Source: an uncultured Methylocystaceae bacterium (GTDB taxonomy: Bacteria > Pseudomonadota > Alphaproteobacteria > Rhizobiales > Beijerinckiaceae). Taken from it: DNA of 64,000 nucleotides. Below, piece after piece: positions 1-18,206 of the stretch. The notes under the pieces are model-generated. The model saw nothing but the letters and a program-made list of their open reading frames with translations, was not told the origin of the DNA and ran no database searches. The stretch spans positions 124,001 to 188,000 of the forward strand of contig CAIQCB010000057.1 of assembly GCA_903870245.1 (NCBI GenBank), in the 5' to 3' direction. The translations under genes and the position numbers were made by a program. Each line of letters starts with the position of its first letter. Positions within the stretch are counted from its first letter, which is position 1.

Positions 1-178
1 TTGCATCAAGTAGGGGCCAGATGATTGCGGGTAATGATGCGTCGACGCGATGTCGCGGAAAAACGGTCGCCTCCGCCAACAGAACGCTGTGACCCATGCC
101 CGCCAGACGATTAGCGATCGTCGCGCCTGCGGGACCGCCGCCAATGACGAAAATATCAGTTTGGAGGAAGGACGTCAC
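1..178 (-). CDS. FAD-dependent monooxygenase, LodB/QhpG or halogenase-like (partial, N-terminus only)
   Basis: The 59 visible residues begin at a GTG (176-178) that overlaps the end of the radical SAM gene by 23 bases, so the two are probably translationally coupled. Residues 8-18 form a Rossmann dinucleotide-binding turn with GGGPAG. It is followed by FPRHRVDASLP, which resembles the FPR...GESLLP segment after the first FAD-binding strand in tryptophan-halogenase and geranylgeranyl-reductase type flavoproteins. Family knowledge: LodB and QhpG are such flavoproteins and help build cysteine tryptophylquinone. Inference: with a LodA-like gene two places upstream, this is the maturase monooxygenase of the cluster. 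The left window edge removes the rest, so the exact subfamily is open. Confidence 0.7.
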   Translation of the reverse strand, partial: MTSFLQTDIFVIGGGPAGATIANRLAGMGHSVLLAEATVFPRHRVDASLPAIIWPLLDA

Positions 179-1559
179 GCCTTGCCTCCGACGCTACTTC
201 AACGCCAAGGATGCTCGCGAGCTGGTGTGGGCGTTCGGAAGCGAGCCTTACATAAACGCCAAGGCAATGATCCAACCAACCACGAATATAGTCGCAGAAT
301 AGACGGCCGCGGTTGATGACGTCGTAATGACAGCCGCCCCCACAAAGATGACGTGCCCAACAGCTCTTGCAAGGCTCCTGGAATTGCACATTGCGCCGGG
401 CCAACCAGTCTGCCTGCGAATTCTGATTCAATCCGACATCGATGTCGCCCATGCGTGCATCGTCATCATTGACGAAGCGATGACAAGCGTAAAGACCGCC
501 ATCAGTGGAAACGCCAAGATAACTGCCGCCGGCCCCGCAGGGATATTCGTCACGGGACCCTTTGTGAATGCGCGCTAGGGTTTCAATTAAATTGGCGAAT
601 GGAAGCGTTTTGCCCTCGGCAAGCAGGGCTTCGAACCGCTCGCTGCAGGCGATCATTTGTGCGAGCATCAGATCAAGCTCTTTAGTGTCGAGCGAACAGC
701 TCCCGCTTGGGGAGGCGATGACCGGCGCGAATTGAATTCTGTCGAAGCCGAGATCAGCAAGGCCAGTCAAAATTTCTGGCAATTCAAGATTGTTCGGCGT
801 AACGCTCACCCGCGCGGCTATATGGCAGCGTCGCTGTCGTCGTTCCACTAAATGACGCAGGCGTCCAATAACCCGCTCATAGGTACCGTGTCCGCCTCGA
901 TCCGGTCGCGCTTTGTCATGCGTAGCGCCAATTCCGTCGATGCTGACAGTTACCGCGAAGCGATATTCGTCAAGAAAATCCGCGTCATCTTCAGTGAGCA
1001 GGGTGGCGTTGGTGGTAAGCGAGAAGTCGACAGTAACGCCTTTTGACGCAGCATAACCTGCGGCAAATTTCGTCGCTTCGCGCAACCCGGAACGATTGGT
1101 CAAGGGTTCGCCACCCATAAAGATCAGCCGCACGTGTTCGCCTGTCGCCGCGTCATCAATGAGCGATTTCACGGCGCGTAGCGCCACATCGAGCGACATC
1201 GATTTGTCAGCGCCGCCGAAATTACCGCCTTCGGCATAGCAATATGCGCAAACCAGATTGCATTTCGCCGCAATGGTGAGCGAAAATGAACGCACTGGGA
1301 CGGAACTCGGAATCGAACCGCCTAAATTTTCCGGGGCCGCTACGCCGACGGCAGTCATTAGCATCCGCAGACGCGCTTCGTCTCCGACGGCCATCGCTTC
1401 TCTCAGCGGGTCGAGCAGGCCCTCATCCGGCGCGTATAGCCGGCCGCTCTCAACCGTGAGCATCGCCCAGCGCCCGCCGGCATTGAAGATATGCGCGGCC
1501 GCGTCAGCTGGCTGCGCAGCGCTCGCTTGCAGGACGTAATCCTCCACGATGAACTCCAA
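156..1559 (-). CDS. Radical SAM/SPASM maturase
   Basis: This 467-residue protein has a radical SAM core with CxxxCxxC at residues 100-107 for the catalytic [4Fe-4S] cluster and SAM, and MGGEP at about 148-152. A C-terminal SPASM-type region has cysteines at 341, 359, 397, 400, 406, 410, 422 and 432, enough for two auxiliary clusters. The CKSCWARHLCGGGCH segment is typical of anSME and QhpD-like enzymes. Residues 1-90 could be a substrate-recognition domain but I cannot assign them. Such enzymes install thioether or C-C crosslinks in peptides or oxidise side chains. Its neighbours are a LodA-like protein upstream and a flavin monooxygenase downstream, so one of these cluster proteins is the likely substrate. 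No short precursor peptide was seen nearby. Confidence 0.9.
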   Translation of the reverse strand: MEFIVEDYVLQASAAQPADAAAHIFNAGGRWAMLTVESGRLYAPDEGLLDPLREAMAVGDEARLRMLMTAVGVAAPENLGGSIPSSVPVRSFSLTIAAKCNLVCAYCYAEGGNFGGADKSMSLDVALRAVKSLIDDAATGEHVRLIFMGGEPLTNRSGLREATKFAAGYAASKGVTVDFSLTTNATLLTEDDADFLDEYRFAVTVSIDGIGATHDKARPDRGGHGTYERVIGRLRHLVERRQRRCHIAARVSVTPNNLELPEILTGLADLGFDRIQFAPVIASPSGSCSLDTKELDLMLAQMIACSERFEALLAEGKTLPFANLIETLARIHKGSRDEYPCGAGGSYLGVSTDGGLYACHRFVNDDDARMGDIDVGLNQNSQADWLARRNVQFQEPCKSCWARHLCGGGCHYDVINRGRLFCDYIRGWLDHCLGVYVRLASERPHQLASILGVEVASEARRDVLPPN

Positions 1560-1627
1560 TCATGCGGCTATGACCGCGTTTGAATGGATAGCGCGCGCAA
1601 TTTATCGCCGAGCGCGGGCGCCACCGA

Positions 1628-2839
1628 TCAAACGATATCGACCAGATCGTCGCCAGGTCCGCGTTCGGTTTCTATCGCCTTGCCATTCACGATTCTGACC
1701 ACGCCGATCTTGTCCTGATGGCGCTCGAAATCATCTCCGTTTGTCAGTCGCGACGGATTGGGACCGGTGCTCGCATATTGACGCCGATACACACGCACTG
1801 GCGTATTCGTCGCCTCATCAAGAAAAGCCTGTGTCGGAAGATTTTCCGCCCAATAGCCAATACAGGCTGTGAAATCCGTCTGCCAGGGCGAGCAGAGTCC
1901 GCTCGTCAGTTGACCTGGGACCGCGCCGGGTTCAGCCGGGGAGCCTTTATGCCGAACTCGCATCTCGCGCGGATCAAGGAGCGGCTCGACATTCGGATTG
2001 TAAAATAGCGACTGTATGGTTGGCACTTCCGAGCGAGAACCCATGGAGGTCTCGAAACCAGGCGCCCAATCGGAAGACGCGGGCGCTATCGACTGTTCGT
2101 CAATGCGGCGCGCCGTTTCATTATGCGGCGTTCCCGGCGAACCCTGTCCCTGTACGAGCAGCTGCTTGAGTTTCAGCAAGAGCGACTCGCCTGGATCCGG
2201 CGCCGGCAGCTGGTCGGGCGAGAAATCATTAGGAGCAACGACGATCCAAGCTGATAGCACCGGAATGTTCTGCGCGGGACCGCTGAGTTTTACGCGCACC
2301 GGCCCGTCGCCGGTCGTATCGGCAATTTCCGCTGTGTGATTGGGAAAATTCGGGACGGGAGCACCCGCCTCCTTACGAAACACCCCGCCTTTTGGCGGAA
2401 TGAAGAGACCCGTTCCCGTTATCTGACCAAGCGGAATATTCTGCCCCTCGGCAAATCCTGGGATACTCGCAACGAGGTGCCCCTCATTTGCGTCGTTAGA
2501 CGAAGCGCTGGCGCCAAACACGATGTGCGTCTCGGTGGGAAGGCCTTGTTGACGCGCTGTAAAGGCGAGCTTGCGGTTGGCGATTTCGGCCGACCACACC
2601 GCTGAGACACCCAGCTGGCTCATCAGGGCAGGCGTAACCTCCCCGAGGCCGACATGATTCTCTCCGTAAGCAAAAATTCTAAATTGCACCGCCTGCCGCT
2701 TCATCAAGCCGTTGGATTTGTAGTTGGCAGGCTGCATGCCGAAAACGAAATAATCATCACTTTTCGACACGCGGGCGATGCCGATCGCCGGATGAATTTT
2801 GAATACGACTACGTCACTGACATCGTTTGGAAAAGCCAT
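1628..2839 (-). CDS. LodA/GoxA-like protein (CTQ oxidase family), short form
   Basis: The start was chosen at the ATG preceded by AGGAGG (403 residues); upstream ATGs lack such a site. The N-terminus FKIHPAIGIARVSKSDDYFVFG matches the HPAIGIARVGNS signature of LodA-type amino acid oxidases. Near the C-terminus LCSPWQTDFTAC (residues 315-326) keeps an Asp and Cys four residues apart. From memory this matches the active-site Asp512 and crosslinked Cys516 of Marinomonas LodA. LodA itself has over 700 residues, so this is a reduced version. The only Trp after that Cys is Trp330. The downstream segment where LodA carries its quinone Trp reads DDFERHQDKIGVV here, with His at 374. Catalytic activity is therefore uncertain. 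No signal peptide is seen. Confidence 0.75.
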   Translation of the reverse strand: MAFPNDVSDVVVFKIHPAIGIARVSKSDDYFVFGMQPANYKSNGLMKRQAVQFRIFAYGENHVGLGEVTPALMSQLGVSAVWSAEIANRKLAFTARQQGLPTETHIVFGASASSNDANEGHLVASIPGFAEGQNIPLGQITGTGLFIPPKGGVFRKEAGAPVPNFPNHTAEIADTTGDGPVRVKLSGPAQNIPVLSAWIVVAPNDFSPDQLPAPDPGESLLLKLKQLLVQGQGSPGTPHNETARRIDEQSIAPASSDWAPGFETSMGSRSEVPTIQSLFYNPNVEPLLDPREMRVRHKGSPAEPGAVPGQLTSGLCSPWQTDFTACIGYWAENLPTQAFLDEATNTPVRVYRRQYASTGPNPSRLTNGDDFERHQDKIGVVRIVNGKAIETERGPGDDLVDIV

Positions 2840-2897
2840 GGGGATTCCTCCTAACCTAGATAAAAACCGAATTCGTGCGCCATTTGGCGCATGGCGT

Positions 2898-3932
2898 TCA
2901 GACGACAAGAGGCGGCATGTGCTCAAACGACACGGCGGCGCGCTTGCCGGTCGCTTCGTCGACGAAATTCATTGCATCCACGGCGAGTCCACGAAGCGCA
3001 ACCATATTTGCGTTGGTTTTCTTGATATGGTCTGGTTCACCGTTGAATGAACGGTGCAAATCCCGCAGCATGTCCGCGTAAGCTTGATTGAACGCGTCGA
3101 CGAGGCCGCGTCCCCAACTGCCATCAGGATGGTCCGCAGCCTTGGGATTTGGCGGAAAATTTAATACGCCCGCGCTATCGAATGTGATTGCGTCGCCCTT
3201 ATAGGCGTAGCCCTTCGGATTGTCGTCCCGCTCGAGACGCCGACCGTGAAAGATTTCAGCGAAATGGTAATAGTGCGCGAGCTGCCCTTCTACATCGAAC
3301 GGCTTTGTCTTGGTTCCTTCGCCATCCTCTACAATCCAGCGCAAGGCGCGCGTCGCCGTCTCAACATTAGTAATCGCGAACAGGCGATCGGACGGAAAAC
3401 CTGCCGCCGTGGCGCCAACGACCTGCTTCGCGAGGTCTCCGATAAACAGAGCCTCCCCAAGATCCTCGATTTTGGCGATAAGCGCGACGTAAAACGCGCC
3501 AATCGTGGCGAAGGCCGCAGCCGGTCGAGGAAATTCGATCGGAATTTCCGGCTCCTCGATTTTCATGAAGACGTCGCGAACGAGGTCGATTGAAAAAGGC
3601 TGCAAGCCAACTTGCAACCCCGCTTGAATACCCATGGGAAGCGCGGACGGATACTTCGGCGTAAACAACTCGCCGCCAATCGCCGGATGTCCGCCAACAG
3701 CAGTGAGCAAATTGCTCATTATTGCCATGTGCAGCATTTCTTCTTTCGCGATAGCGATGAGAGTCGATCTTATCTGGCTGTTCCCGCCTTCCTTCAACGA
3801 ATAGGCCGCGAGCAGATATGGCGGTATTGTCGAGTGTTCCAGCTCGATCGCCTTTTGCAATGCGTCATGCAAATCGAAGGGGCCGCCGGCTGTACGCACC
3901 GCCCGAATAAATTTCGGATCAATCGAAAGCAC
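2898..3932 (-). CDS. Ferritin-like domain protein of the VioB type
   Basis: This is a 344-residue protein and the first gene of the minus-strand cluster. Helices with IELEH (residues 29-33) and KEEMLHM (63-69) supply the Glu/His ligands of a ferritin-like dinuclear metal site. The opening LHDALQKAIELEHSTIPPYLLAAYS is the hallmark of the ferritin-like domain found in VioB (iminophenyl-pyruvate dimer synthase). Family knowledge: such domains bind iron, and in VioB act on imines of amino acid oxidation products. Inference: a partner of an amino-acid or peptide oxidase such as the LodA-like protein encoded 58 bases downstream. Full-length VioB is about three times longer, so chromopyrrolate-type chemistry is not implied. 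It is divergent from the hydrolase gene at 4204. Confidence 0.8.
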   Translation of the reverse strand: MLSIDPKFIRAVRTAGGPFDLHDALQKAIELEHSTIPPYLLAAYSLKEGGNSQIRSTLIAIAKEEMLHMAIMSNLLTAVGGHPAIGGELFTPKYPSALPMGIQAGLQVGLQPFSIDLVRDVFMKIEEPEIPIEFPRPAAAFATIGAFYVALIAKIEDLGEALFIGDLAKQVVGATAAGFPSDRLFAITNVETATRALRWIVEDGEGTKTKPFDVEGQLAHYYHFAEIFHGRRLERDDNPKGYAYKGDAITFDSAGVLNFPPNPKAADHPDGSWGRGLVDAFNQAYADMLRDLHRSFNGEPDHIKKTNANMVALRGLAVDAMNFVDEATGKRAAVSFEHMPPLVV

Positions 3933-4203
3933 AATCGTTGCTCCGCAGCATCAGTCGTCAAAAACCGAAGGGCGAAACGCCATGGATGCGATTTGAGCAC
4001 AATGCCAAGCAAGCGTCTAGACTAAAAGATGAATGAGGGAGGGACGAACGCGCCCTGGGGCTTTCGGCTTCGCAGGCGGGAACATGTTGCGCGGCATCGA
4101 AGCTTGGCTTAACTTGAATTGAATTACATGCTGCGGATAACGATAGTGAATGTATGTCGCAGTGCATCAACGCTCTGATAATAAAAGTTTTACAGGAGAC
4201 ACC
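3933..4203. promoter_or_regulatory. Divergent intergenic region between blocks A and B
   Basis: These 271 bases separate the start of the minus-strand ferritin/LodA-like cluster from the plus-strand hydrolase/CHAT operon. Promoters for both must lie here unless transcription comes from outside. A run rich in A and T around 4105-4150 is the likeliest promoter area, and a Shine-Dalgarno-like ACAGGAGA lies just before the ATG at 4204. I could not fix a convincing -35/-10 pair or operator. Confidence 0.4.
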
Positions 4204-5529
4204 ATGCCGTCTCAACCAGGGCCATATCCGCTGCCGGGTATTTCAATGGAAAGCTGGGTTGTCCGCTTTGATGAAAGCGGCCGTTGCGTTTCGCCAAAGA
4301 CCCGGAGCGCGCTTCTTGCGAAGCTGGCCGCAGAGCCCGGCCGTCCGGTCATCTTTTTCTCGCATGGATGGAACAATGATTTTTCCGACGCGGTCGATCT
4401 CTATCGACGCTTTCTCGTCAACTTCGAAGCAGCGACGGCCGCAAACCCGCTTCCTGCCGGAACGAAGCCGATATTTGTCGGCATTACCTGGCCGAGCATC
4501 TGGCTTCCGTCCGATTCCGGGCCACAACTCGCCGCAGCGCCGGAAGACGAATCAACCTATGCGAGAGACGAAGCGCTTCTGGCTGAGCTCCGTCGGATAT
4601 TGCCGAGCACGACCGATTGGAACCGCCTCTACGAACTCCTCGAAGCCGATCGTGTCAGCGGCGAGGACGCCAAGGTTCTCGCACGGCTGATCGCCCCGGC
4701 GTTGCGAGCCGGTTTTGAAGAAGGAGCCAGCGAACCGGCGACAACGGAAGAGCATGTGCTACGCGCGATGAGCCGACTGCAATCGGCCAATGCAAGAAGG
4801 AAAGGCTATTACCTCGGCGAGAGCGGCACGATCAGCGGCGGTTCGCCCGCCGCCCCGGCGGCGCCGGCCGGCGCGCTTGATTTCCTTGATCCGCGCAATG
4901 CGCTGCGCCTCGCGTCGCTCTATATGATGAAAGACCGGGCCGGCACCGTCGGTGCCGCAGGCGTATCCGAGTTCCTCCGCGCAATGCTCTCGGGTTCGTC
5001 GTCGCCCGTATACGCGATAGGGCACTCTTTTGGCTGCAAGGTGATGATGAGCGCCGTTTGTGCCGCGCCGCTGGATCGCAAGCTGAAGGCGATTTTGCTG
5101 CTTCAGCCGGCGATTTCTTATCTCAGCTTCGCGGCCAATATCCCAGGCGTTGGCCTCCCGGGAGGTTATCGCTCCGGACTGGACCGCGTCGAAGGGCCCA
5201 TCTGCGTCACCTATAGCGGCAACGATTTCCCGTTACATACGATCTATCACCTCGCGCTGATGCGCGAGAAGGATATTGGCGAATTGAAAGTCGCCGGTGG
5301 AACGAGCGCAGGGGAGCCGCCGAACATTTTTGCAGCCCTCGGCGGCTTTGGACCAAGAAATTCGAGCGAGGCGTTGATTGATCCAATTCCCCAGCCAAAT
5401 GAGAGTTTCGCGTTTCCGCCTGGTGCCCGCATTATTGGCTTGGACGGGACGCGTGAAAAGCGCATCGACTCGCATGGGGGCGTCGCGACGCCGGCGACCG
5501 CTTGGATGCTGCACCGACTGATGAATTGA
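4204..5529 (+). CDS. Alpha/beta-hydrolase fold protein
   Basis: This 441-residue protein begins at an ATG preceded by AGGAGA. SHGWNNDF (residues 53-60) gives the oxyanion-hole HG motif. AIGHSFGCK (271-279) is a nucleophile elbow with Ser275. YSGNDFPLH (Asp341) and DSHGG (His424) are plausible acid and base of the triad. The core is interrupted by a long helical, Ala/Glu-rich insertion (about 105-230), which may be a lid or partner-binding arm. No signal peptide is present, so it is probably cytosolic. It is the first gene of a four-gene operon with two CHAT-type proteins and a C25-like protein, the next start being 9 bases away. The substrate is unknown; esterase, lipase or thioesterase activity are all possible. 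Confidence 0.8.
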   Translation: MPSQPGPYPLPGISMESWVVRFDESGRCVSPKTRSALLAKLAAEPGRPVIFFSHGWNNDFSDAVDLYRRFLVNFEAATAANPLPAGTKPIFVGITWPSIWLPSDSGPQLAAAPEDESTYARDEALLAELRRILPSTTDWNRLYELLEADRVSGEDAKVLARLIAPALRAGFEEGASEPATTEEHVLRAMSRLQSANARRKGYYLGESGTISGGSPAAPAAPAGALDFLDPRNALRLASLYMMKDRAGTVGAAGVSEFLRAMLSGSSSPVYAIGHSFGCKVMMSAVCAAPLDRKLKAILLLQPAISYLSFAANIPGVGLPGGYRSGLDRVEGPICVTYSGNDFPLHTIYHLALMREKDIGELKVAGGTSAGEPPNIFAALGGFGPRNSSEALIDPIPQPNESFAFPPGARIIGLDGTREKRIDSHGGVATPATAWMLHRLMN

Positions 5530-5538
5530 GAAAAACTC

Positions 5539-6918
5539 ATGTACTGGTTCTCGAAACAGCAACAAATGTTCTGCCTCAGAATCGGATTGACGACGGAGCC
5601 TAAGGTTGCGCTGCAGCTTCTTTATGGTGAAGAATCGATCGACGAACGCGACTATTCTCCGTCTGAGATCGACGCGCCCTCCGAAATTGCGGACGGTGTG
5701 GAACCAAAACTAACGCTGCCCTGGGAATTTAAAGACGCCCTCGCGACTGTGCTCGCCGATGCGCCGAAATCCGCCCCCTTATGGCTTCATTTCGTCAAGC
5801 CCTATGGCTATCTTGGTGTTCAACCTTGGGAGACCGAGCTGACACAATTGCTCGCGCGACCAATATTGCGACTACCGGACCTGTTTGAGCGCCCTCCTGA
5901 AACGCGCGATGTTCTGGAAGTGGCGATCATATATGACGCCGGACCTCGCACGGTGCCCAAGGACGCGGAGCTCCAAATCAAGATCATCGCTACGGCGATC
6001 GCGAAGGATAGCTTGCGGAATCAAACGCGCGTTCATCTATTTCCGTCTGTCGCCTGGAGAGCCGCCTTCAAGGAAATCGAATTTGATCACCGCGTCATTG
6101 TCTATGATCCGGTTGAAGCGGCGGCGACGGCGGGGACAGCTCAACCGTTCACGAATTGGTCGAGTTGGATTCAGAGCAAAATTGGGCAACTTAGTCTCGA
6201 CGCGGTCCATTTGGTCTGCGCCGCGGCGGACACGGCGATCGGCCCAGTGTTGCGTCTCTCAACCGTTCCAGATTCATCCGGGCTCGCGCCGCAAATTGCG
6301 GTGGATATGGAAGCGCTAGGCGCTTTTCTTACCCGAGTGGGAGCTTGGACGGCGATCTTCACCCCGCCCCCAGGCGATCAATGGGGCGTTGGCCTCCGGA
6401 TGGCCGCCGACGTTCTGGCAAAAGCGAGGCCGACCACTTGTGTCTTTCAACCGATAGCGACCGCAGATCACGCGCTGGGCTTCCACCTGTTGTGCAGGTT
6501 TGTATTTTCTCCGAATCCGGCAGACCCGCCAAAGTGTGTCGACAGCTTCGTCTATTGTCCGCCCAAAATGGTGGCTGAAGATTACCCGCTGAAGCCGGGC
6601 TCAATTTTCGACGCTATGCACGCCAACGCCTCTTTGCTGGAACGTTCGTCACGGAAAGAGAAGATGCTTAACTGGCTCAATAGTTGGCGCGGCCTTGAGA
6701 ATCCGCAAACGCCCAAATGGGCCTCGGCCATTCAAAGACATATCGAATCGCTAACGCTTCATGAGTTAAGACGCCAGAGTCCCGATATTCTGCTTTCTTC
6801 CCGCGAAAGCCTGCTTTCACAGCTTGAAAAAAAAAACAGCGGAGCGGCTGACGACGGCGGCAGAGAGACTCTTGAAGCCATCCAGAAAATTGTCGCCGAT
6901 AATCTGAAAATTAAATAA
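5539..6918 (+). CDS. CHAT-like protein lacking a clear catalytic pair
   Basis: This 459-residue protein is not recognised by strong similarity. The layout follows that of CHAT proteases. A segment GYLGVQPWETEL (residues 90-101), then LARPILRLP, matches the PWELL and arginine/valine-rich opening of CHAT domains. It is followed by an EVAIIYDAG strand and a VHLVCAAADTA strand where the active protein downstream has its catalytic motifs. No LHFxxHG or NSCSG equivalent is visible, so it looks like a pseudoenzyme. The C-terminal 90 residues are helical and charged. It lies between a hydrolase and an active CHAT gene (14 bases to the latter). Inference: a regulatory or substrate-binding partner of the downstream CHAT protein. 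Confidence 0.5.
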   Translation: MYWFSKQQQMFCLRIGLTTEPKVALQLLYGEESIDERDYSPSEIDAPSEIADGVEPKLTLPWEFKDALATVLADAPKSAPLWLHFVKPYGYLGVQPWETELTQLLARPILRLPDLFERPPETRDVLEVAIIYDAGPRTVPKDAELQIKIIATAIAKDSLRNQTRVHLFPSVAWRAAFKEIEFDHRVIVYDPVEAAATAGTAQPFTNWSSWIQSKIGQLSLDAVHLVCAAADTAIGPVLRLSTVPDSSGLAPQIAVDMEALGAFLTRVGAWTAIFTPPPGDQWGVGLRMAADVLAKARPTTCVFQPIATADHALGFHLLCRFVFSPNPADPPKCVDSFVYCPPKMVAEDYPLKPGSIFDAMHANASLLERSSRKEKMLNWLNSWRGLENPQTPKWASAIQRHIESLTLHELRRQSPDILLSSRESLLSQLEKKNSGAADDGGRETLEAIQKIVADNLKIK

Positions 6919-6932
6919 TTAGGCATTTTGCA

Positions 6933-8348
6933 ATGATCGATTTGTTGATCCGAGTTGCTCCCCTCCAAGGCGATCCGAGTTACCTGCTTGTTTCTGTCGA
7001 AGCTGGCAGCCCTCTCGACGGAGCGCGGAAACCCGCCCAATTTCATTTCGATTTAAACGCACACAAACTGGACACTCCGGATAACGTCGCCAGCTACGGC
7101 CGGGCGGTTTGTGAGGCCCTTGCAAAGCACGACGTCATCGACTTCGAGCTTTCAAAGCTGTTTGCAAGCGTTGGTGCTGATGAGGCCTGCTCGTTGAAAT
7201 TTCAACTGGCCGAAGCAGGAGGGGAAGAGATTCGCTGGGAATCGCTATGCGACAAAGATGCCAGATATCTCTCGCTGGCCAAGAAGTATCGTCTTGCGCG
7301 GGTGGCTACACCGCTTAAGGAAAAGGATGTGTCACGCGTGGCGCGACTGCCGCTCAAGATGCTTGCGTACCTTTCCGCGGCGGGAGTCTCCGCGGCGGAC
7401 GAATTTAGAACTCTTTGTGAGCAGCTGGTCCAGGCGCGAGCGAATGGCCTTATGATTGAGGCGGAAATATTTGTCGGCGAGGAGCGCATCCTCAACGAGC
7501 CGGCCATAGTCGCAGGGATTGATCCTGGTTCGTTGAGCCATATTTCTGTAAGGCCAATACCCTTGGCTGATGTTTTAGAAAACCAAGTCCGCAAAGGTTC
7601 CTATCAGTTTCTGCATTTTTTTTGTCATGGCGTGGACAGAGGCGCGGGTCTCAAAGGACTTTCTCTCGCGACAATTCAAAATCACCTAAGTGGCGAACAG
7701 AGCGGCGGCGTGCTTCTCTCGCTTCAGGCGCTGACGGAAGCGCTCGCCGAGAACCAATCGGCCTGGATTGCTGTCTTCAATAGCTGCTCCGGGGCCGCAG
7801 GGACAGTTTATTTCAATTCTCTCGCCTATAATGTCACGAATACTGGCTGCCCTTACGCCATCGGCATGGCGGAGCCCGTCGAGCCGGGCATCGCGGCCAT
7901 CATAACCAAAGCGCTTTATGGCGAGCTGTTTACTACCGTAATAGCGACGCTGCCCAATCTACCCAAGGATAAGTTTGGCACCATCGATCTTTCTGGCGTT
8001 ATCAATCCAGCGCGCAAGGCAATTAAAAGCTATTGCGAAGCGATTGACCCGGGCGGTCCCTATGGGCGTTGGCTGACGCCTGTAATTTACATAAATGCGC
8101 CGAAGCCACTGCCAGTGCAGCTACAGCAGGCCGTCACAGACGCGCTGGGCGATCGACGCGAAATAGCTGACCAGAAGATGTTGGAGCGGATTAACATCAT
8201 TGCGAGCGCGTTGCGCGTTTTGCCGGGCGATGCGCCCCCCGAAGTGCGCGATCAGATTTTTGCCTTGCTCGATAAAGCGCCGGCAGTTCCAATTAGATTG
8301 CGACCAAACAAGAATGGAGAGTTCATTTCCAACGGAGCCGCCTCATGA
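6933..8348 (+). CDS. CHAT-domain cysteine protease
   Basis: This 471-residue protein has the caspase/separase-like CHAT fold over roughly residues 95-380. EEIRWESL (98-105) corresponds to the PWELL entry motif. QFLHFFCHGVD (225-235) carries the catalytic His232, and AVFNSCSGAA (280-289) the catalytic Cys285. NTGCPYAIGMAEPVEPG matches the conserved GVPAVIGMQ-type strand. CHAT proteases are used as triggered effectors, for example with type III-E CRISPR gRAMP or gasdermin partners. No TPR array is present here. The C-terminal 90 residues may be an adaptor. The stop overlaps the next start (ATGA at 8345), showing tight coupling to the C25-like gene. The target is unknown. Confidence 0.85.
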   Translation: MIDLLIRVAPLQGDPSYLLVSVEAGSPLDGARKPAQFHFDLNAHKLDTPDNVASYGRAVCEALAKHDVIDFELSKLFASVGADEACSLKFQLAEAGGEEIRWESLCDKDARYLSLAKKYRLARVATPLKEKDVSRVARLPLKMLAYLSAAGVSAADEFRTLCEQLVQARANGLMIEAEIFVGEERILNEPAIVAGIDPGSLSHISVRPIPLADVLENQVRKGSYQFLHFFCHGVDRGAGLKGLSLATIQNHLSGEQSGGVLLSLQALTEALAENQSAWIAVFNSCSGAAGTVYFNSLAYNVTNTGCPYAIGMAEPVEPGIAAIITKALYGELFTTVIATLPNLPKDKFGTIDLSGVINPARKAIKSYCEAIDPGGPYGRWLTPVIYINAPKPLPVQLQQAVTDALGDRREIADQKMLERINIIASALRVLPGDAPPEVRDQIFALLDKAPAVPIRLRPNKNGEFISNGAAS

Positions 8349-9748
8349 CAAAGATTGATCGTCCTGCGAAATTATCGATCAACGCTTGGACTGGCGCCAA
8401 GGCGCCAGTCCAAGATTTGCCGGCACAGACGCCTTGGGCCACGCGTGAGAATCTTATTCCTTACCGACAATTCCTGGCCGCGCCGGATGAACCCGATGAA
8501 CGCGACTGGATGCATCCGGATGTCGGGTGGGGGCTCGTTCTGCGGGACAATGACTCGATATCGATCCCGGATCGCGTCGTCGGAGCCGATGCTCCGGAAC
8601 CGTTGCGCCAACTCCTGCAAAAGCGCGCGGGGGCACCGGTTCTTCGTTGGCGGCCAGAGTTGCAACAGAATTATTTGCGGCGTTATTACGCCGACGGTTT
8701 GGGTCAGGATTTGTCGACCGCAGCGGTTTCCGTGGGTGTTGGTCGAGGCTGCATCCCGCGTTACCTGCTTATTTACGCCACGCCCAAGGACATCCCATGG
8801 GCCGTACAATACGCGCTCAACGCGTCCTGCTATGTCGGGCGCTTGGATCTCGTCGGCGACTCGCTAGCTCACTATGTCAACGCTCTGATAAACGACTGGG
8901 CGGAACAAGACAGCGACCCGCGCGCGCCGCTTGTGTGGAGCGCTGTGCATGACCAGACGGACATAACCTATCTCATGTCGGGCGCCGTTTGTGAGAAGGT
9001 ATGGAGAAATCTCGACGCCAACGATGATCTGATAGGCCGGCGCTGGATCAACGGCGGCGACGCCACAATACTGAATTTGGCGAATGCGCTGGCGGAGAAG
9101 AAGCCAGCGTTGATCGTGACCACCAGTCACGGCATGACCGGGCCGCTTCACGATGGCGCTCTAATGTCAGCGCAACTCGGCGCGCCAGTGGACATCGATT
9201 ACGCCACGCTCGACGCGCAATTGCTCGCGGCGTGGAGTCCGTCGGGTGCCATCTGGTATTCCAACGCGTGCTGCGCTGCCGGGGCGGACTCGAAGTCTCG
9301 TTACGAAGACTTGATGCCCGCTGACGGAGATGTCGGCGCGCTTTTGCGTGGAGTCGCTAAAGGCGCAGGCGCGATGATTTCGCCTTTGCCAAGATATCTG
9401 CTCGGCCATGAACGCCCCCTGCGGGCGTTTGTTGGCCATGTTGAGCCGACTTTCGACTGGACGCTACAAGATCCCGACACAAAACAGATCACGACAATGG
9501 CGTTGAGCGGCGCGCTGACAACACGGCTCTATCGAAGATATGAACGCAATCCCGTCGGCTGGGCGTTGCATAAGGTCTACGAGGAGGCGGGTCATTTTTT
9601 CGCGGGGTTCCAACAGGCTATCAAGGACGTCAATAGCTGGGTCCCCGGAGCGCCGGATAGCGCATTATATCGGCAACTGTCGGCTATGGATCGCCAGACG
9701 ACGGTCATTTTAGGCGATCCGACTGTTTCAATGCCCAAGGTGGCGTAA
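8345..9748 (+). CDS. Gingipain/caspase-fold (C25-like) peptidase-like protein
   Basis: This is a 467-residue protein. LIVTTSHGMTGP (residues 257-267) has the His262 of a caspase-fold dyad, and AIWYSNACCAAGAD (302-315) offers Cys309 or Cys310 as nucleophile. The C-terminus TVILGDPTVSMP closely resembles the LGDP(A/S)xxLP tail of gingipain-type C25 peptidases. No signal peptide is present, unlike secreted gingipains, so action is probably intracellular. The N-terminal 120 residues are polar and contain RDWMHPDVGWG. It is the last gene of the block B operon and is followed by a terminator-like hairpin. Inference: together with the CHAT protein it could form a two-step proteolytic cascade. Family assignment rests on motifs only. 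Confidence 0.6.
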   Translation: MTKIDRPAKLSINAWTGAKAPVQDLPAQTPWATRENLIPYRQFLAAPDEPDERDWMHPDVGWGLVLRDNDSISIPDRVVGADAPEPLRQLLQKRAGAPVLRWRPELQQNYLRRYYADGLGQDLSTAAVSVGVGRGCIPRYLLIYATPKDIPWAVQYALNASCYVGRLDLVGDSLAHYVNALINDWAEQDSDPRAPLVWSAVHDQTDITYLMSGAVCEKVWRNLDANDDLIGRRWINGGDATILNLANALAEKKPALIVTTSHGMTGPLHDGALMSAQLGAPVDIDYATLDAQLLAAWSPSGAIWYSNACCAAGADSKSRYEDLMPADGDVGALLRGVAKGAGAMISPLPRYLLGHERPLRAFVGHVEPTFDWTLQDPDTKQITTMALSGALTTRLYRRYERNPVGWALHKVYEEAGHFFAGFQQAIKDVNSWVPGAPDSALYRQLSAMDRQTTVILGDPTVSMPKVA

Positions 9749-9752
9749 TTAC

Positions 9753-9778
9753 AACCTTCGTCGGTTGAAGGTTTATTT
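9753..9778 (+). terminator. Terminator-like hairpin after the CHAT operon
   Basis: AACCTTC (9753-9759) pairs with GAAGGTT (9767-9773) across a 7-base loop, followed by TATTTT. It sits directly after the C25-like stop codon and separates blocks B and C. Confidence 0.6.
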
Positions 9779-9877
9779 TGGCTCAGCAAACGACTCGGGA
9801 GAAGGTCAGGTGTGCAGCCTATTCAGCGATATCCTTTTGCGATATTCTCAGTTGGAGCGCCGTGCCAGGGCCTTTGG

Positions 9878-9905
9878 TTGTGCCGTACAAAGCTACTACT
9901 ATAGT
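9878..9905 (+). promoter_or_regulatory. Candidate sigma70-type promoter for block C
   Basis: TTGTGC and TATAGT are separated by 16 bases, about 36 bases before the TTG start of the GMC gene. The match to the -35 consensus is only partial, so this is tentative. Confidence 0.3.
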
Positions 9906-9941
9906 GTAAATATCGTCGCGTTCTAGCGAGGGCATTGGGCT

Positions 9942-11393
9942 TTGACTGTTCTGGAAAATGATGTCGAGCAACTCGGCACGACTTCGCGCGAGACGCCGTT
10001 CGACGCGATTGTCGTTGGCGCAGGTTCATCCGGCCTCACGGTTGCTCACTCTCTGACGGCGCGCGGCGCCTCCGTCGTCGTTCTCGAGGCCGGGCCGGCG
10101 CCCTTCCTCACGCACATCACCAACACCGACCTCCGCTTCGCGCGCGACCTGTTGCGCAACCTCCGTGAGGCGGTCGCGTACCGGCCGCGACTGGCAAGCG
10201 GCGGCGAGTTCGGGGTCAACTACGGGTGCTTCGGCGGCCGCGGGCTCTTTTGGAATGGCGCCTCGCCACGATACTCGCCGGCCGATTTCGCCGGCTGGCC
10301 GGCGGATGGCATTCCGCAACAAGCGGACTACGCATGGGCCGAGCAACAATTCCGGGTTACGACCGCAATGGGCCGCACGGCGATGGCCGGACGGCTGATC
10401 GCGAAGCTGTCGGCAGGGGGCTTCGCGGCCGAGCCCGGTCCCTTCGCCGCTGATATCGAGGATCTCTATACGGGCCGCCTCAGCGCCGGCATCGCGTCCG
10501 GGCTGGGGCTCTTCTTCCGCGGCTCCGGAAACGCTGCCGTCCAAGGCAAGCTCAAGGTCGCGATCAACAGCCGCGCCGACAGGTTGCTGGTTCAGAGCGG
10601 CACCGTGCGGGGCGTCGCCGCCGTCGGCGGTCAGGGCACAGCGCCGGTGGAGATCCTGTCGCGCGCCGTGGTTCTGTGCGGCGGCGGCCTCGAGTCGGTG
10701 AAGCTCGCCGCGATTTCGTCTATTCCCGACCCTCACGGCCGCATCGGCAAAGGCATTCAAGACCACCTGTTCTACCCGGCCCAGCTCAATGCGCCCGAAA
10801 TCTACGATGCAACGTCGCGGTCATCGGCGATCGTCTATGTCAGATCGCAGAGCCAGAGCGGTCACCAGTGGGAGCTTCATGCCCCAGGAAACCGCCTGTT
10901 CTCGATCGACGACGGCGCGCCTTGGGTCCCCGCCGCCGCGCCGCCTTACGAGATCATGATCCGGTCGTTCGCGGCCACGGAAAAACGCGACGATAATTTC
11001 CTCGAGGCCGCAGCGGGCGGACTTGGAAGTTCTACGGTTCACTTCAGCTATTCGGCCGCGGACCAGGCGAAGAAAGCGGAAATGGCGGCGGATGCCGTGC
11101 GCCTTTGCGCCGTGCTCGGGGCCCAGGGCGTGACACCGCCCGACCTGTCCTCGGTCGATCGCTTCCGCACGCCGGGCAACAGCTACCACGAAGCCGGAGG
11201 GCTCGACATGGGTGTCGATGCCGCGACATCGGTGACGGCGCCCGACGGCAGCTTTCACAGCGTGGCAAATCTCGTCAGCGCCGACGCGGCGTCGTTCCCC
11301 CGCATCGGCGCCACCAACCCGCATCTCACCATAGTCGCCGTGGCGCGACGCAAAGCGCAGCAGCTGGCCGACCGGTTCGCCGTCATCCCATAG
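9942..11393 (+). CDS. GMC-family FAD oxidoreductase
   Basis: This 483-residue protein starts at a TTG; the nearby ATGs are out of frame. DAIVVGAGSSGLT (residues 21-33) is the FAD-binding GxGxxG turn, ending in Glu49 for ribose binding. The C-terminal GMC domain has NSYHEAGGLDMG and GATNPHLTIVAVAR, giving the conserved His and the NPH catalytic pair. A central GGEFGVNYGCFGGRGLFWNG segment matches the substrate/FAD loop. GMC enzymes oxidise alcohols, sugars or cholesterol. No Tat signal is seen, so it is cytosolic. It is the first gene of a six- or seven-gene operon (12 bases to the next gene). The substrate is unknown. Confidence 0.85.
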   Translation: MTVLENDVEQLGTTSRETPFDAIVVGAGSSGLTVAHSLTARGASVVVLEAGPAPFLTHITNTDLRFARDLLRNLREAVAYRPRLASGGEFGVNYGCFGGRGLFWNGASPRYSPADFAGWPADGIPQQADYAWAEQQFRVTTAMGRTAMAGRLIAKLSAGGFAAEPGPFAADIEDLYTGRLSAGIASGLGLFFRGSGNAAVQGKLKVAINSRADRLLVQSGTVRGVAAVGGQGTAPVEILSRAVVLCGGGLESVKLAAISSIPDPHGRIGKGIQDHLFYPAQLNAPEIYDATSRSSAIVYVRSQSQSGHQWELHAPGNRLFSIDDGAPWVPAAAPPYEIMIRSFAATEKRDDNFLEAAAGGLGSSTVHFSYSAADQAKKAEMAADAVRLCAVLGAQGVTPPDLSSVDRFRTPGNSYHEAGGLDMGVDAATSVTAPDGSFHSVANLVSADAASFPRIGATNPHLTIVAVARRKAQQLADRFAVIP

Positions 11394-11405
11394 GAGACCA
11401 CGCTC

Positions 11406-12233
11406 ATGGCCCGCAGTAGTGTCGAACTTCCAGTCGGCCCGTTGGGCATACGGCTGTTCATCGGATACCGGGCTCCGGCGTTCACCGTTCAGCCCGGCGA
11501 CGACGAGGTGACACGCAACAAGAAGCGCACGGACTTCTTCAACGAACTCGGCGGCGCCTTCATGCCCGGCACGCCGGTGATGCAGGCACCGCTGGGACTG
11601 GGTGCCTACGTGCCGGCGGTGCTCGACACCGAGCCAGGTTCCGGTCTGCCGGATGAAGTCGCCGCCATCGTCTACGCCTCACGTGCGATCTACGACCGCT
11701 TTCGCGAGACCTCCCTCTCCCGCCGAATCTACACGCGCTCGCACGTCGCGGTGTTCGATATGGCCCGCTCGGTCGCGCAGTTTCCGCAGCCGCTGAGTTC
11801 GCCGACGGTCGTGCATGTGAACGGCAGCGCGCACCATTTTACCTTTCTCGCTCCCGACGCCCAGGTCGATTGGCAGGCCGGCTCGGTCCGCGTCGTGTTC
11901 CTCACCACTGCCTCGCCAGGCGCTGCCTTCCAGGCCGACATGCTTCAGCGGCTTGGTGCCAGTGCAGCCGCAGCGGCCGCGGCCGGCATCGACCAAGTTC
12001 TCATGCTGAGCGGCGACGGCTTTGCTGCCCTGTGGTTCCACTCGGAGACTTCGGTGGCCGACTCCCCTCAGCGCCTCGACCTCGTCCCCGCCGGCGCCAC
12101 GGTGATGCGCAACTTCGAAGCCGTGCACATACCCGTGACGGGGGATTCCTCGCCCGGAGTCCCCGTCATCGACGCCATGGCGATCACCTTCCGCTTCGAG
12201 CGCAAGCTCGATCTGTTCATTCCGCCACAGTAG
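11406..12233 (+). CDS. Conserved-looking protein of unknown function
   Basis: This 275-residue protein was not recognised. AGGAG lies 10 bases before the ATG. It is rich in beta-type sequence, for example VRVVFLTTAS and QVLMLSGDGFAALWFHS, with a VVHVNGSAHHF segment and an Ala-only helix near residue 190. No signal peptide or membrane segment is present. It lies between the GMC oxidoreductase and a broken small gene, with the same 12-base spacings, so it is clearly part of the operon. It could be a binding or scaffold protein of the pathway. Confidence 0.5.
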   Translation: MARSSVELPVGPLGIRLFIGYRAPAFTVQPGDDEVTRNKKRTDFFNELGGAFMPGTPVMQAPLGLGAYVPAVLDTEPGSGLPDEVAAIVYASRAIYDRFRETSLSRRIYTRSHVAVFDMARSVAQFPQPLSSPTVVHVNGSAHHFTFLAPDAQVDWQAGSVRVVFLTTASPGAAFQADMLQRLGASAAAAAAAGIDQVLMLSGDGFAALWFHSETSVADSPQRLDLVPAGATVMRNFEAVHIPVTGDSSPGVPVIDAMAITFRFERKLDLFIPPQ

Positions 12234-12245
12234 AGAGCAACCGCC

Positions 12246-12556
12246 ATGCAGACCCTTCGCGCCCAGCTGGCGGCCTATCTCGAAGTGGCAATCCGATCTG
12301 AACGCGGAGTGGCGAGCCTTCTTCGGATCCGTCAATCCCGATCTCTCAGCGGTCGACCTCGCTCTTCAGAGCGATCCAGACCTTCCCGTGCGCGCGACCG
12401 CGGCGTCTGGGAACAAGTTCTCGCTGCCGTGGCCCATCCGCATCCTAACACCGTGGGGCCCTCAGGCTATCTGGCGCGAGGAAATCCGCTTGCTAAGATG
12501 AATACGGCACTTGCCGCCATGTCTGGTTCAATAGTCCGCTGGTAGTCGAGGCAATC
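12246..12556 (+). pseudogene. Small gene broken by frameshifts
   Basis: An ATG with an upstream GAGAG and operon-like spacing opens a frame whose first 14 residues (MQTLRAQLAAYLEV) look natural, but it then turns Arg/Ser-rich. From about 12286 the +1 frame reads like real protein, with NAEWRAFFGSVNPDLSAVD and PWPIRILTPWGPQAIW, and stops at 12501. A third frame (DEYGTCRHVWFNSPLVVE) then runs into the following gene. At least two indels therefore separate a sensible protein of about 100 residues. Either the gene is decaying or the assembly has errors here. No family was recognised. Confidence 0.55.
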
Positions 12557-14158
12557 ATGAAAGTCGGAGCCTATCTCGGCAATCAGGCCCATGCTCCCGC
12601 GAACAGCTGGACCGCCCTGATCAGTGCCTATACCGGCGGCGCGAGCGTCCTGCATTTCGCGACGCGCCTCACCGCCGACCGGCGCATCGTGCTGGCGCAG
12701 GCCGATGACGTCGCCGCCGCGACCGGTACCGAAGGGCGGATCGGAGCCATGTCACTAGCGGCGCTGCGACAGCTCGATTTTTCGCAGCGTTTCACGCCGC
12801 GCGGCTCGGCCTCGGGCGACTTCAACTATTTCGATCCGACTGTCGAAGGGCGACCTTTCGCCCTCGACGCCCTCGACGAGATTGTCAGCGAGCTGCCGCG
12901 CGACGTCGACTGGCTGATTGAGATCAGACCGGAAGATGCCGCCGATGCGGTGGCGGAACTGCTGCGATCGCGCGGCGCGCTCTCGCGCTCGGTTCTGGCG
13001 CTAGAAACCAAGGCCGCCATCGCCCGCTGCAAGACTAGGTTTCCGACGGTGCGGACCGCGCTCGTGCTGCCCGCCGAGCAGCCGCTCCCCGACACTGCGC
13101 CGGCCGGCTGCGAAGTCCTCGTCGTCCCGGTGGAGCGCTTCTGGCGCGACGGCGGCTGGACGTCGGACGCCCAACGCTTCTGCCAGCGCCAGGGCAACAG
13201 CTACTTCCCCCTCGGCGCGCAACTCGCGAGCGCGGCAACTGAATATCCGGGAATGCTGGCGGCCGCCAAGTCGGCTGGATGGGTGTGGGGCGTTTGCCTC
13301 GGCTCGACGTTCGACTTCGCAGCCCTCCGGCCCTCTTTTGTCCACGTCGACGAGAGCTTTGCCGGCACCGCGGTCGATCGAACCCGCTTCGCGCTGGGTT
13401 ATGCGAAGGCGAATGGCTTCGCGACCGTTACCTGGAACGACGGTATCCATATCGCCATCGCGCCGTACACAGGCGAATTGCCCCGTTCCAGCGGCGACGG
13501 GATCGAACGACGCTTAAGCCGCATTGAGTGGGATCTGATCGACGTTGCCCGGCAATGGCCGTTCTACTCGGGTGGCGGCGTCGGCCTAGTAGCCGGCATC
13601 GCCGACGATTTCGCCGCCGAAGTTAGCTATCGAGTCAAGGAAGTCGGCCAAGCAACGACGCTGGAGATGGCCGTGCTCAACGTCGATCCCGGTGCACACC
13701 GGGGCGCGCCTCCGGCCTCCTTCCGCGACAAGGACAGCTTCTACGACCCTCATGGAGCGCCGCCCTATGTCGGCGTCGAGCACGACGAGGACGACGGTTT
13801 TCGAATCAATTGGAACCTTGGCAGCGAGTATGACAACAACCAGTACGGCCGGCCGGTGGGCGACGGACGCACCGCCCGGGGCGCGGAAATACGCTTAGAG
13901 CGGCGCGGCGCCTATTTCGCCGCGTATTATCGCAATCCGGTCGATGCCGACGGCGACGTCCTCCACCCGCGCGACTGGGTCTGCGTCGGCGTCGCGCGAA
14001 ACGACACACTCAACCGCACCCTTTACCTGCGCTGCGTCGGCAAGCGCTGGCGGCAGGAGAAGGCAGACGATCCAAGTCAGTACGAGCCGATTCTCGCCAA
14101 CGAATTCACATTCCGGAACCTGCGCGTCACGTGCTTTCCGCCGATCGATGGAGAATAG
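12557..14158 (+). CDS. GDPD-like TIM-barrel protein with C-terminal beta domain, probably non-catalytic
   Basis: This is a 533-residue protein. Residues 1-290 follow the glycerophosphodiester phosphodiesterase pattern: a VLHFATRLTADRRIVLAQ segment (31-48) where active enzymes have ExDvxxTxDgxxVxxHD, then GAMSLAALRQLDF, then LIEIRPE (120-126). The initial HRG, the ExD and the HD are all replaced, so metal-dependent hydrolysis is doubtful. Residues about 330-533 form a second beta-rich domain with FYDPHGAPPYVG and NNQYGRP, resembling a lectin or jelly-roll module. No signal peptide is present. It is two bases before the phosphorylase-like gene. It may bind rather than cleave its ligand. Confidence 0.55.
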   Translation: MKVGAYLGNQAHAPANSWTALISAYTGGASVLHFATRLTADRRIVLAQADDVAAATGTEGRIGAMSLAALRQLDFSQRFTPRGSASGDFNYFDPTVEGRPFALDALDEIVSELPRDVDWLIEIRPEDAADAVAELLRSRGALSRSVLALETKAAIARCKTRFPTVRTALVLPAEQPLPDTAPAGCEVLVVPVERFWRDGGWTSDAQRFCQRQGNSYFPLGAQLASAATEYPGMLAAAKSAGWVWGVCLGSTFDFAALRPSFVHVDESFAGTAVDRTRFALGYAKANGFATVTWNDGIHIAIAPYTGELPRSSGDGIERRLSRIEWDLIDVARQWPFYSGGGVGLVAGIADDFAAEVSYRVKEVGQATTLEMAVLNVDPGAHRGAPPASFRDKDSFYDPHGAPPYVGVEHDEDDGFRINWNLGSEYDNNQYGRPVGDGRTARGAEIRLERRGAYFAAYYRNPVDADGDVLHPRDWVCVGVARNDTLNRTLYLRCVGKRWRQEKADDPSQYEPILANEFTFRNLRVTCFPPIDGE

Positions 14159-14160
14159 AC

Positions 14161-15387
14161 ATGCCCCCTGTCCTGCCGCCTGACCCGGCACGCGAGATAA
14201 TCGATTTCGGTCTGACCGCCGACGACCTCAGCCCCGCTCCGGTCCAGCCGGCTGCCGCTCCGCTGATAGACCTCGGCTTGCCATGGCCCGCGGGACAGGC
14301 GCCGCAGCCACAACCCTGGCCCGATGGCGAGGAGCCCGATCCCGGCGATCCCCTGCCGCGCGCCGATGTACTCGTCATCACCTGGACCGTCGCCGAGCAC
14401 GAGGCGCTGGCCGACGTGCTCACGCCGGGCTTCGGCCGCAACACTTGGTCGCGCTACACCCGCCGCTTCGACACCCACTATCGACCACTGATCCGAAACG
14501 GCGCACCGGCGCTGCGAGCGGGCCGACTCGGCTCCTACTTCCGCACCCGGATCGAAGGCCGGCTCCTCGTCGTCTTCAAGTCCGAGCTGCACCTCAACCA
14601 AGACGGCCGCCGCACCGGCGATGGCACGGCGACGCTGCCAGTCAAGGACATGTTCCACCAGTTGATCGAAGAGGTGCAGCCAGAGCTGGTGATCACGGTT
14701 GGCACCGCAGGCGCGACTTTTCCGCCCCAGGGTTCCTCGAACGTCGAGGGCCAGGCCTGTCCGCCGCACGAATTGGGCGACGTGATCATCACGCGCGGGG
14801 CCAAATTCCGCCTGCAACGCGAGTTCGCCAACGAAGCCTTCGCCCGCGCGAGCTATCGCTGTATTAACTTCACGATCCCGACCCGCCGTCTCGACGACGC
14901 GCGCACATTGCTGCATGTGCACGCTGCCAAGCTGGTGGAGCCCGCCTTTGGCCCACCGCACACCAAGTACGACTGGCCGCTAGGCGGCCCGATAGCCGGC
15001 TTCGCAAACGCGCCGGACTTCAAGATCGACGGGCGCGACTTCCCCGAGTTTCATCCGATCCTCACCACCGACTTCTTCGAGTTCGGGACCTCCCGCAACG
15101 GCCTTGAGCGGGAAGGATCGGGCGTGGAAATGGGCGACGCGGTGCTCGGCCTAGTCGCACAGGAAATCAATGCGGCCGGTGGGACACCGCCCAAATGGCT
15201 GGTGGTGCGTAACGCATCCGATCCCCAAATCAACGGCGGCCTGCCCAACCGCGAAACGCCGGGCATCCCGCCGGAGTTGCGGCGCGGGCTCGACATGCAG
15301 GCGCATTGGGCGGTCTGGTATTACGAGACCTACGGCTACTGGACGAGCGTCAACAGCGCGATCGCCGTCTGGGCTATGGTGGCCTGA
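14161..15387 (+). CDS. Nucleoside phosphorylase-superfamily protein
   Basis: This 408-residue protein starts at the ATG two bases after the previous stop. DVLVITWTVAEHEAL, PELVITVGTAGA, ELGDVIITRGAKF, GVEMGDAV and VVRNASDPQING follow the strand order of the PNP/UDP phosphorylase fold. The Asp in the last motif is the usual base-binding residue. The tail SVNSAIAVWAMV matches the C-terminal helix. The first 70 residues are Pro-rich and probably flexible. PNP-fold modules also occur as NAD/nucleotide-cleaving effectors or sensors in bacterial conflict proteins. The length exceeds housekeeping phosphorylases (about 240-290). The nucleobase substrate cannot be predicted. One base separates it from the next gene. 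Confidence 0.75.
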   Translation: MPPVLPPDPAREIIDFGLTADDLSPAPVQPAAAPLIDLGLPWPAGQAPQPQPWPDGEEPDPGDPLPRADVLVITWTVAEHEALADVLTPGFGRNTWSRYTRRFDTHYRPLIRNGAPALRAGRLGSYFRTRIEGRLLVVFKSELHLNQDGRRTGDGTATLPVKDMFHQLIEEVQPELVITVGTAGATFPPQGSSNVEGQACPPHELGDVIITRGAKFRLQREFANEAFARASYRCINFTIPTRRLDDARTLLHVHAAKLVEPAFGPPHTKYDWPLGGPIAGFANAPDFKIDGRDFPEFHPILTTDFFEFGTSRNGLEREGSGVEMGDAVLGLVAQEINAAGGTPPKWLVVRNASDPQINGGLPNRETPGIPPELRRGLDMQAHWAVWYYETYGYWTSVNSAIAVWAMVA

Positions 15388-15388
15388 C

Positions 15389-18199: not shown

Positions 18200-18206
18200 T
18201 TGAACC

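Follow-up and report, generated by a model that had tools for sequence, protein, structure and literature searches.

A compact operon of an alpha/beta hydrolase, a CHAT pseudoenzyme, a CHAT protease and a C25-like protease: a candidate mobile proteolytic module

In bacterial gasdermin operons with CHAT-type proteases, an effector is encoded beside a caspase-like protease, and in the SAVED-CHAT protease cascade a CHAT protease is paired with a second caspase-fold protease. The four-gene cassette that we describe here follows the logic of the former and repeats the pairing of the latter. It lies in a stretch of 64,000 nucleotides, the whole of which we call the window, and was pointed out in an earlier note as a compact operon and a new arrangement. 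A published precedent is given by the VMAP ternary systems: in the sections of Kaur and others that deal with them, the caspase domain always has an alpha/beta-hydrolase neighbor, about 70% of the caspase domains in the effector position are inactive and are proposed to be regulators, and the caspase and the hydrolase are only suggested to operate together (PMC7159879). Another study lists alpha/beta-hydrolases, fused to death-type adaptors of bacteria, as effectors that act on membrane lipids (PMC8195603).

The coordinates in the earlier note, its gaps of 9 bases (ABH to CHps) and 14 bases (CHps to CHAT), and its one overlapping start (CHAT and C25L share an ATGA, a gap of -4) are all confirmed on the sequence (Table 1). 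The open reading frame (ORF) listing puts the first start in the ABH frame at 4150; we favor the ATG at 4204 because of the AGGAG ahead of it and the family alignment. Taken alone, the hairpin beyond C25L is weak evidence, since the region holds 15 terminator-like sites against a mean of 6.9 in shuffled sequence; it agrees with a rise in GC content near base 10000, where about 57% gives way to 67%.

Table 1. The four genes of the cassette and the putative signals at its two ends (positions in the window)
Feature	Positions	Strand	Description
AGGAG, probable ribosome-binding site of ABH	4194..4198	+	read off the sequence
ABH	4204..5529	+	DUF900-type alpha/beta hydrolase, 441 aa
CHps	5539..6918	+	predicted catalytically dead CHAT-fold protein, 459 aa
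CHAT protease	6933..8348	+	471 aa, His232 and Cys285
C25L	8345..9748	+	gingipain-like (C25-like) cysteine protease, 467 aa, His262 and Cys309
Terminator-like hairpin with T-rich tail	9753..9773	+	4 bases 3' of the C25L stop

The window's ABH scores 20.4 bits on Pfam DUF900 (PF05990; cut-off 20.5), and 31 of the 33 members of its family match that model at E <= 0.01 (best 4.9e-8). Its Ser275 (in GHSFG), Asp341 and His424 are invariant (33/33), and its hydropathy, with a maximum of 1.35 in the window protein and values above 1.8 in one of 33 members, gives no strongly hydrophobic segment of the transmembrane type. The CHAT protease belongs to Pfam CHAT (PF12770; 30.9 bits, cut-off 24, E 2.5e-7), the sole Pfam match of 6933-8348 at E <= 1, with neither SAVED nor TPR on the protein. 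Its His232 and Cys285, the residues that had been proposed for mutation, are invariant in all 33 sequences. CHps, on the other side of the pair, matches no Pfam family at E <= 1 and so lies below the CHAT cut-off; one of its 33 family members matches PF12770, at E 0.071. It is predicted to adopt the two-subdomain CHAT fold (top match DdvA, titled an anti-sigma factor), with a helical, poorly predicted C-terminal third, and no member (0/33) has the His and Cys dyad of an active protease, the Cys position being Pro in 24 of 33.

C25L is predicted to adopt the catalytic fold of the gingipains RgpB and Kgp, and its active-site residues, like those of ABH and the CHAT protease, are invariant. The window protein has no match to Pfam Peptidase C25 (PF01364), which one of 37 members matches at E 0.034; because the Pfam cut-off is not reached, we label the protein C25-like and do not file it as a C25 member. 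By hhalign it is homologous, at E 6e-26, to two cyanobacterial proteins annotated as C25, and the Nostoc C25 relative scores 38.9 bits on Pfam C25 (cut-off 23) across its C-terminal part; the hhalign comparison of C25L with CHAT is weak (7.9%). The hydropathy of C25L peaks at 1.11 in the window protein and exceeds 1.8 in 2 of 37 members, which gives no long hydrophobic segment. The motif GHVEPTFDW, residues 364-372, is invariant in 37 of 37 members and is preserved in part, as GHVERAW, in two cyanobacterial relatives. Sequence searches of solved structures returned no convincing relative of ABH, CHps or C25L. Profiles and predicted folds bear out the four family calls that had been made from the letters (alpha/beta-hydrolase, CHAT pseudoenzyme, CHAT protease, C25-like protein), and the products of 5539-6918 and 8345-9748 are, as had been expected, predicted to be caspase-like (CHAT and gingipain folds). 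The profile search suggested at the same time came out positive for the CHAT protease and divided for C25L, which failed at the Pfam cut-off and passed by hhalign.

We found 41 related loci by scanning genome contigs with short exact peptide patterns of the window's C25L, so their number is a lower bound and C25L is present at every one by construction; what is tested is its company. The complete set in its order is present at 28 of the 41, 27 by tblastn and one more (L037) in which an ORF at the right place clusters with the CHAT family, and the joint conservation on which the earlier note had staked its claim therefore holds. Median spacings over the 27 tblastn-complete loci are 19, 0 and -4 bases. 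Four loci carry CHps-CHAT-C25L without ABH (L018, L022, L028, L041), four carry ABH and C25L without the CHAT pair (L006, L012, L031, L032), and five lack both ABH and CHps (L010, L019, L038, L042, L043), among them a short contig that starts inside CHAT (L019) and two partial C25L matches (L042, L043). CHps is kept in all 32 loci where the operon's CHAT was found whole, a count that excludes the cut L019 and L038, whose CHAT-family pair has no recognized CHps; ORF calls at the loci and their flanks are crude. Going by record titles, the loci belong to Alpha-, Beta- and Gammaproteobacteria, Actinomycetota, Chloroflexota and Gemmatimonadota, and some are metagenome-assembled. Searches of 385 genomes of the class with C25L, and of 398 genomes of the phylum with an ABH profile, returned only the window's own genome, with few candidates scored per genome. 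The cassette is rare, patchy and scattered over phyla.

Pairwise distances of the four proteins correlate for all six pairs of proteins (Mantel r 0.70-0.83), and 0 of 5000 permutations reached the observed value for any pair, over 27 complete sets (the window and 26 loci; L026 and L039 have no C25L row). Left out of the C25L alignment as cut, broken or partial were L019, L026, L039, L042 and L043; L019 was also left out of the CHAT alignment, and the second ABH-family ORF of L035, which lies immediately ahead of the cassette (L035:2669-4459), was dropped. Chance neighbors are ruled out by the order kept in 28 of 41 loci together with this co-divergence. The analysis, which reads activity from residues and modeled folds, shows a tight, co-inherited operon of one apparent serine hydrolase, one apparently dead and one apparently intact CHAT, and one apparently intact C25-like protease. 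In the same 27 loci C25L has a mean pairwise identity of 42.9%, ABH of 38.9%, CHAT of 27.3% and CHps of 24.6%, and both C25L and ABH are better conserved than either CHAT or CHps in every one of the 351 locus pairs. This is the pattern expected of a fast sensor pair (CHps, CHAT) with a fixed output pair (C25L, ABH), and it may be read in that way; the quick divergence of CHps may alternatively reflect relaxed constraint.

In the window the cassette has a separate-looking operon on either side. The left one, divergent and on the minus strand at 156-3932, holds radical SAM and LodA-like genes and a third whose product we take to be ferritin-like; the radical SAM protein is nearest to the quinohemoprotein amine dehydrogenase maturase (326 bits, cut-off 453), and the LodA-like protein weakly matches an annotated LodA/GoxA oxidase in L044. 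The right one, on the plus strand at 9942-20480, is a second module of GMC oxidoreductase, GDPD-like, hypothetical, 1009-aa amidohydrolase and subtilase-like genes; its annotated order recurs on plasmid p5 of Azospirillum argentinense (last two genes matched), and within some 14 kb of it the annotation lists neither a CHAT nor a C25 gene. We regard both as separate because their proteins do not recur near the cassette: tblastn with the flanking window proteins gave no match in L003-L043 except one weak g10 match. On this search, and for the right operon also on the Azospirillum occurrence without CHAT or C25, we reject a larger unit that includes the left or the right operon. On the plasmid of B. 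barranii, some 6 kb separate a LodA/GoxA gene from the cassette, a proximity that we regard as coincidental. The remark that TPR, gasdermin and CRISPR partners are absent holds for ten proteins of the window run against Pfam: the four of the cassette, the product of 156-1559 and five encoded to the right of the cassette, with the pair of genes at 1628-3932 outside the scan. Among these ten there is no Cas family, no VMAP-C and, by Pfam and PADLOC, no gasdermin.

C25L occurs on 5 plasmid records, 2 of them typed conjugative, with the full set in the 2 whose sequence was examined. On the conjugative B. barranii plasmid pBb323S2c (L044), homologs of HmaB and HmaC (E 0 and 6e-283; 1033-16398) lie upstream of the cassette, in the order HmaB, HmaC and then, about 3.5 kb on, the cassette; this neighbor is a single case, in a set of nine hand-picked proteins of which five had no match and two only weak ones. 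At L010 an integrase gene adjoins C25L. Scans of the flanks, which covered the 125 nearest of 285 candidate flanking ORFs, found them mostly unrelated: close relatives share theirs (L028 with L041, L019 with L026), a small number of clusters extend over three loci, any one Pfam family turns up in at most 3 of the 125 proteins, and the families listed for cassette neighbors are mostly metabolic. With PADLOC at E <= 1e-25, about 5 of the 125 match any family (mad3 in two, PDC-S04 and SoFic in one each, and, in L012, a protein kinase hit by PD-T4-6 as well as by other kinase models), a raw count without a control that gives no visible defense enrichment and leaves a defense-island location unsupported. 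No PADLOC family matches any of the four cassette proteins. A phage origin was also rejected: neither CHAT nor ABH had a match among 50,697 phage records, and the C25L patterns matched 23 viral stretches, none of them a relative. Mobility, patchiness and the Hma neighbor on one plasmid make a role in defense plausible, and we hold that reading in even balance because they stand against flanks that are not visibly rich in PADLOC families.

Of 25 plasmid records with a relative of ABH, 24 have a protease gene next to it or in its cluster. The protease is C25L in 5 records and a subtilase in 17 (many of them near-identical Rhizobium plasmids); in the other 2 it is C25, along with CHAT-nSTAND1. 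Fifteen of the 24 pairings (3 of the 5 with C25L, 12 of the 17 with a subtilase) are read from coordinates only, and the other 5 subtilase pairings were seen in sequence; the exception, in R. rhodochrous, has no recognized protease beside ABH, as judged without a family search. Because the pairing survives a change of protease class, we consider it the firmest guide to mechanism.

Several loci, among them ones that lack parts of the set, carry other genes beside these proteins. Subtilase (S8) and DUF900-like hydrolase genes lie 9-12 bases apart in L046, L052, L053 and L065, and such pairs, a second protease-hydrolase combination, occur on Rhizobium, Sinorhizobium and Rhodococcus plasmids. A papain-family gene (Pfam C1) replaces ABH before CHps-CHAT-C25L at L028:6067-7113, and its clustered homolog takes the same place at L041:6068-7114. 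At L012:5368-9853, ABH and C25L directly follow genes for a histidine-kinase-type ATPase and a protein kinase, and the kinase gene ends where ABH starts; at L032:3722-9943 (Chloroflexales) beta-propeller, Hsp70 and clostripain-family genes precede the same two. L006 has a protein with a weak, sub-threshold C14 caspase match (E 0.0053) near ABH and C25L and, adjoining it just ahead of ABH, a 606-aa ORF whose C-terminal end holds both ribosomal S5 domains (L006:5561-7381). A lecithin:cholesterol acyltransferase-type hydrolase lies nearby at L010, and subtilase and CHAT-family proteins at L038.

We suggest, with the chances evenly poised, that the cassette is a self-contained, horizontally moving proteolytic module that acts as a triggered switch, possibly in cell death or defense. 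The fast-evolving CHps and CHAT would form a sensor or initiator complex, with CHps standing in for the TPR, SAVED or STAND partner of other CHAT proteases. A trigger, probably a product of an invader, would set off CHAT, which would cleave and activate C25L, ABH or both; C25L would then amplify or execute, and ABH would be the effector, hydrolyzing a lipid or other ester and causing growth arrest or death. We infer an executioner role for the cassette proteases. Counting against this scheme, four loci carry CHps-CHAT-C25L without ABH, which is therefore not always needed. A more specific version, to which we lean somewhat less than to the switch itself, is a stand-alone cell-death or immune module in at least four phyla, with a CHps-CHAT heteromer as sensor, C25L as amplifier and ABH as a protease-licensed killer, a lipase counterpart of the gasdermin systems in which the subtilase, papain, kinase, Hsp70 and STAND variants would be built on the same hydrolase/protease hub.

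The division of labor could be the reverse, with C25L as the executioner that degrades cell proteins and ABH as its regulator (a brake, a chaperone-like inhibitor or a de-acylase of the trigger). C25L is the best conserved of the four proteins, at 42.9% mean pairwise identity, and remains at L018, L022, L028 and L041, where ABH is missing; however, ABH keeps its S275, D341 and H424 in 33 of 33 sequences, and its relatives pair with subtilases on plasmids without a C25L tblastn match (a search that also missed the distant Nostoc and Planktothrix C25 proteins), and we consider this assignment rather unlikely. We also weighed a role outside defense, with the cassette as a module of regulated proteolysis that serves stress response, differentiation or metabolism; this would suit the mostly metabolic neighbor families with their few matches to defense models, the oxidase-type genes of the operons on either side in the window, and the fact that a CHAT-fold protein, DdvA, can act in anti-sigma control. 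Against it, few of the neighbors are conserved from one genome to another, the cassette occurs rarely and in scattered phyla, and none of the four proteins resembles a sigma or anti-sigma factor by Pfam, which together make a poor fit to a core regulator; we judge it unlikely. Least probable by far is a maintenance module that kills cells losing or competing with a plasmid or island: the five plasmid records with C25L, two of them conjugative, and the integrase beside C25L of L010 are what such a module would predict, but the four window genes leave no room between them for a small antidote gene (outside them, only genes of at least 80 aa were listed).

Set against known systems, the cassette shares with VMAP-MoxR-vWA a caspase-superfamily peptidase beside an alpha/beta-hydrolase gene (the hydrolases being compared by description), but it has no VMAP, MoxR or vWA, and its peptidases are CHAT and C25-like; VMAP-C was found in 0 of 372 genomes of the class, its own included, with the control genomes likewise without a match. 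On cyanobacterial plasmids (Nostoc, L048/L049; Planktothrix, L050), homologous ABH and C25 genes cluster with CHAT proteins; there CHAT is fused to a STAND NTPase, with WD40 repeats in Nostoc, and in Planktothrix WD40 is found in a gene of its own together with an IS element, whereas the cassette's CHAT stands alone with a dead CHAT partner. The SAVED-CHAT protease of type III CRISPR is similar in its CHAT domain (profile against structure 8tl0, titled SAVED-CHAT filament, E 1.3e-6); the cassette's CHAT has no SAVED, and its second protease is C25-like. With Craspase/Csx29, the TPR-CHAT protein of type III-E CRISPR, it shares the two-subdomain CHAT fold as far as that is described in the relevant part of PMC11127173, but it has no TPR, and no gRAMP or Csx30 was recognized. 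Unlike in the gasdermin operons, the proposed effector is a serine hydrolase. C25L, which is 12-13% identical to RgpB and Kgp, differs from them in lacking a long hydrophobic segment and in being part of a conflict-type operon. The claim of a new arrangement stands for the four-gene set, which was not found in the literature searched (a weak negative, subscription papers being thinly covered), and falls for the pairing of caspase and alpha/beta-hydrolase, which is known from VMAP systems (PMC7159879); relatives of ABH and C25 also lie next to CHAT-nSTAND1 proteins on two cyanobacterial plasmids. To the known pairings the cassette adds a pseudoprotease, CHps, kept throughout the 32 loci with a whole CHAT, and, because the caspase/hydrolase pair is here stripped to four soluble-looking proteins, it makes the question of whether a caspase-fold protease activates a hydrolase testable. 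The cassette is a new variant on a known caspase-hydrolase conflict theme rather than something categorically new.
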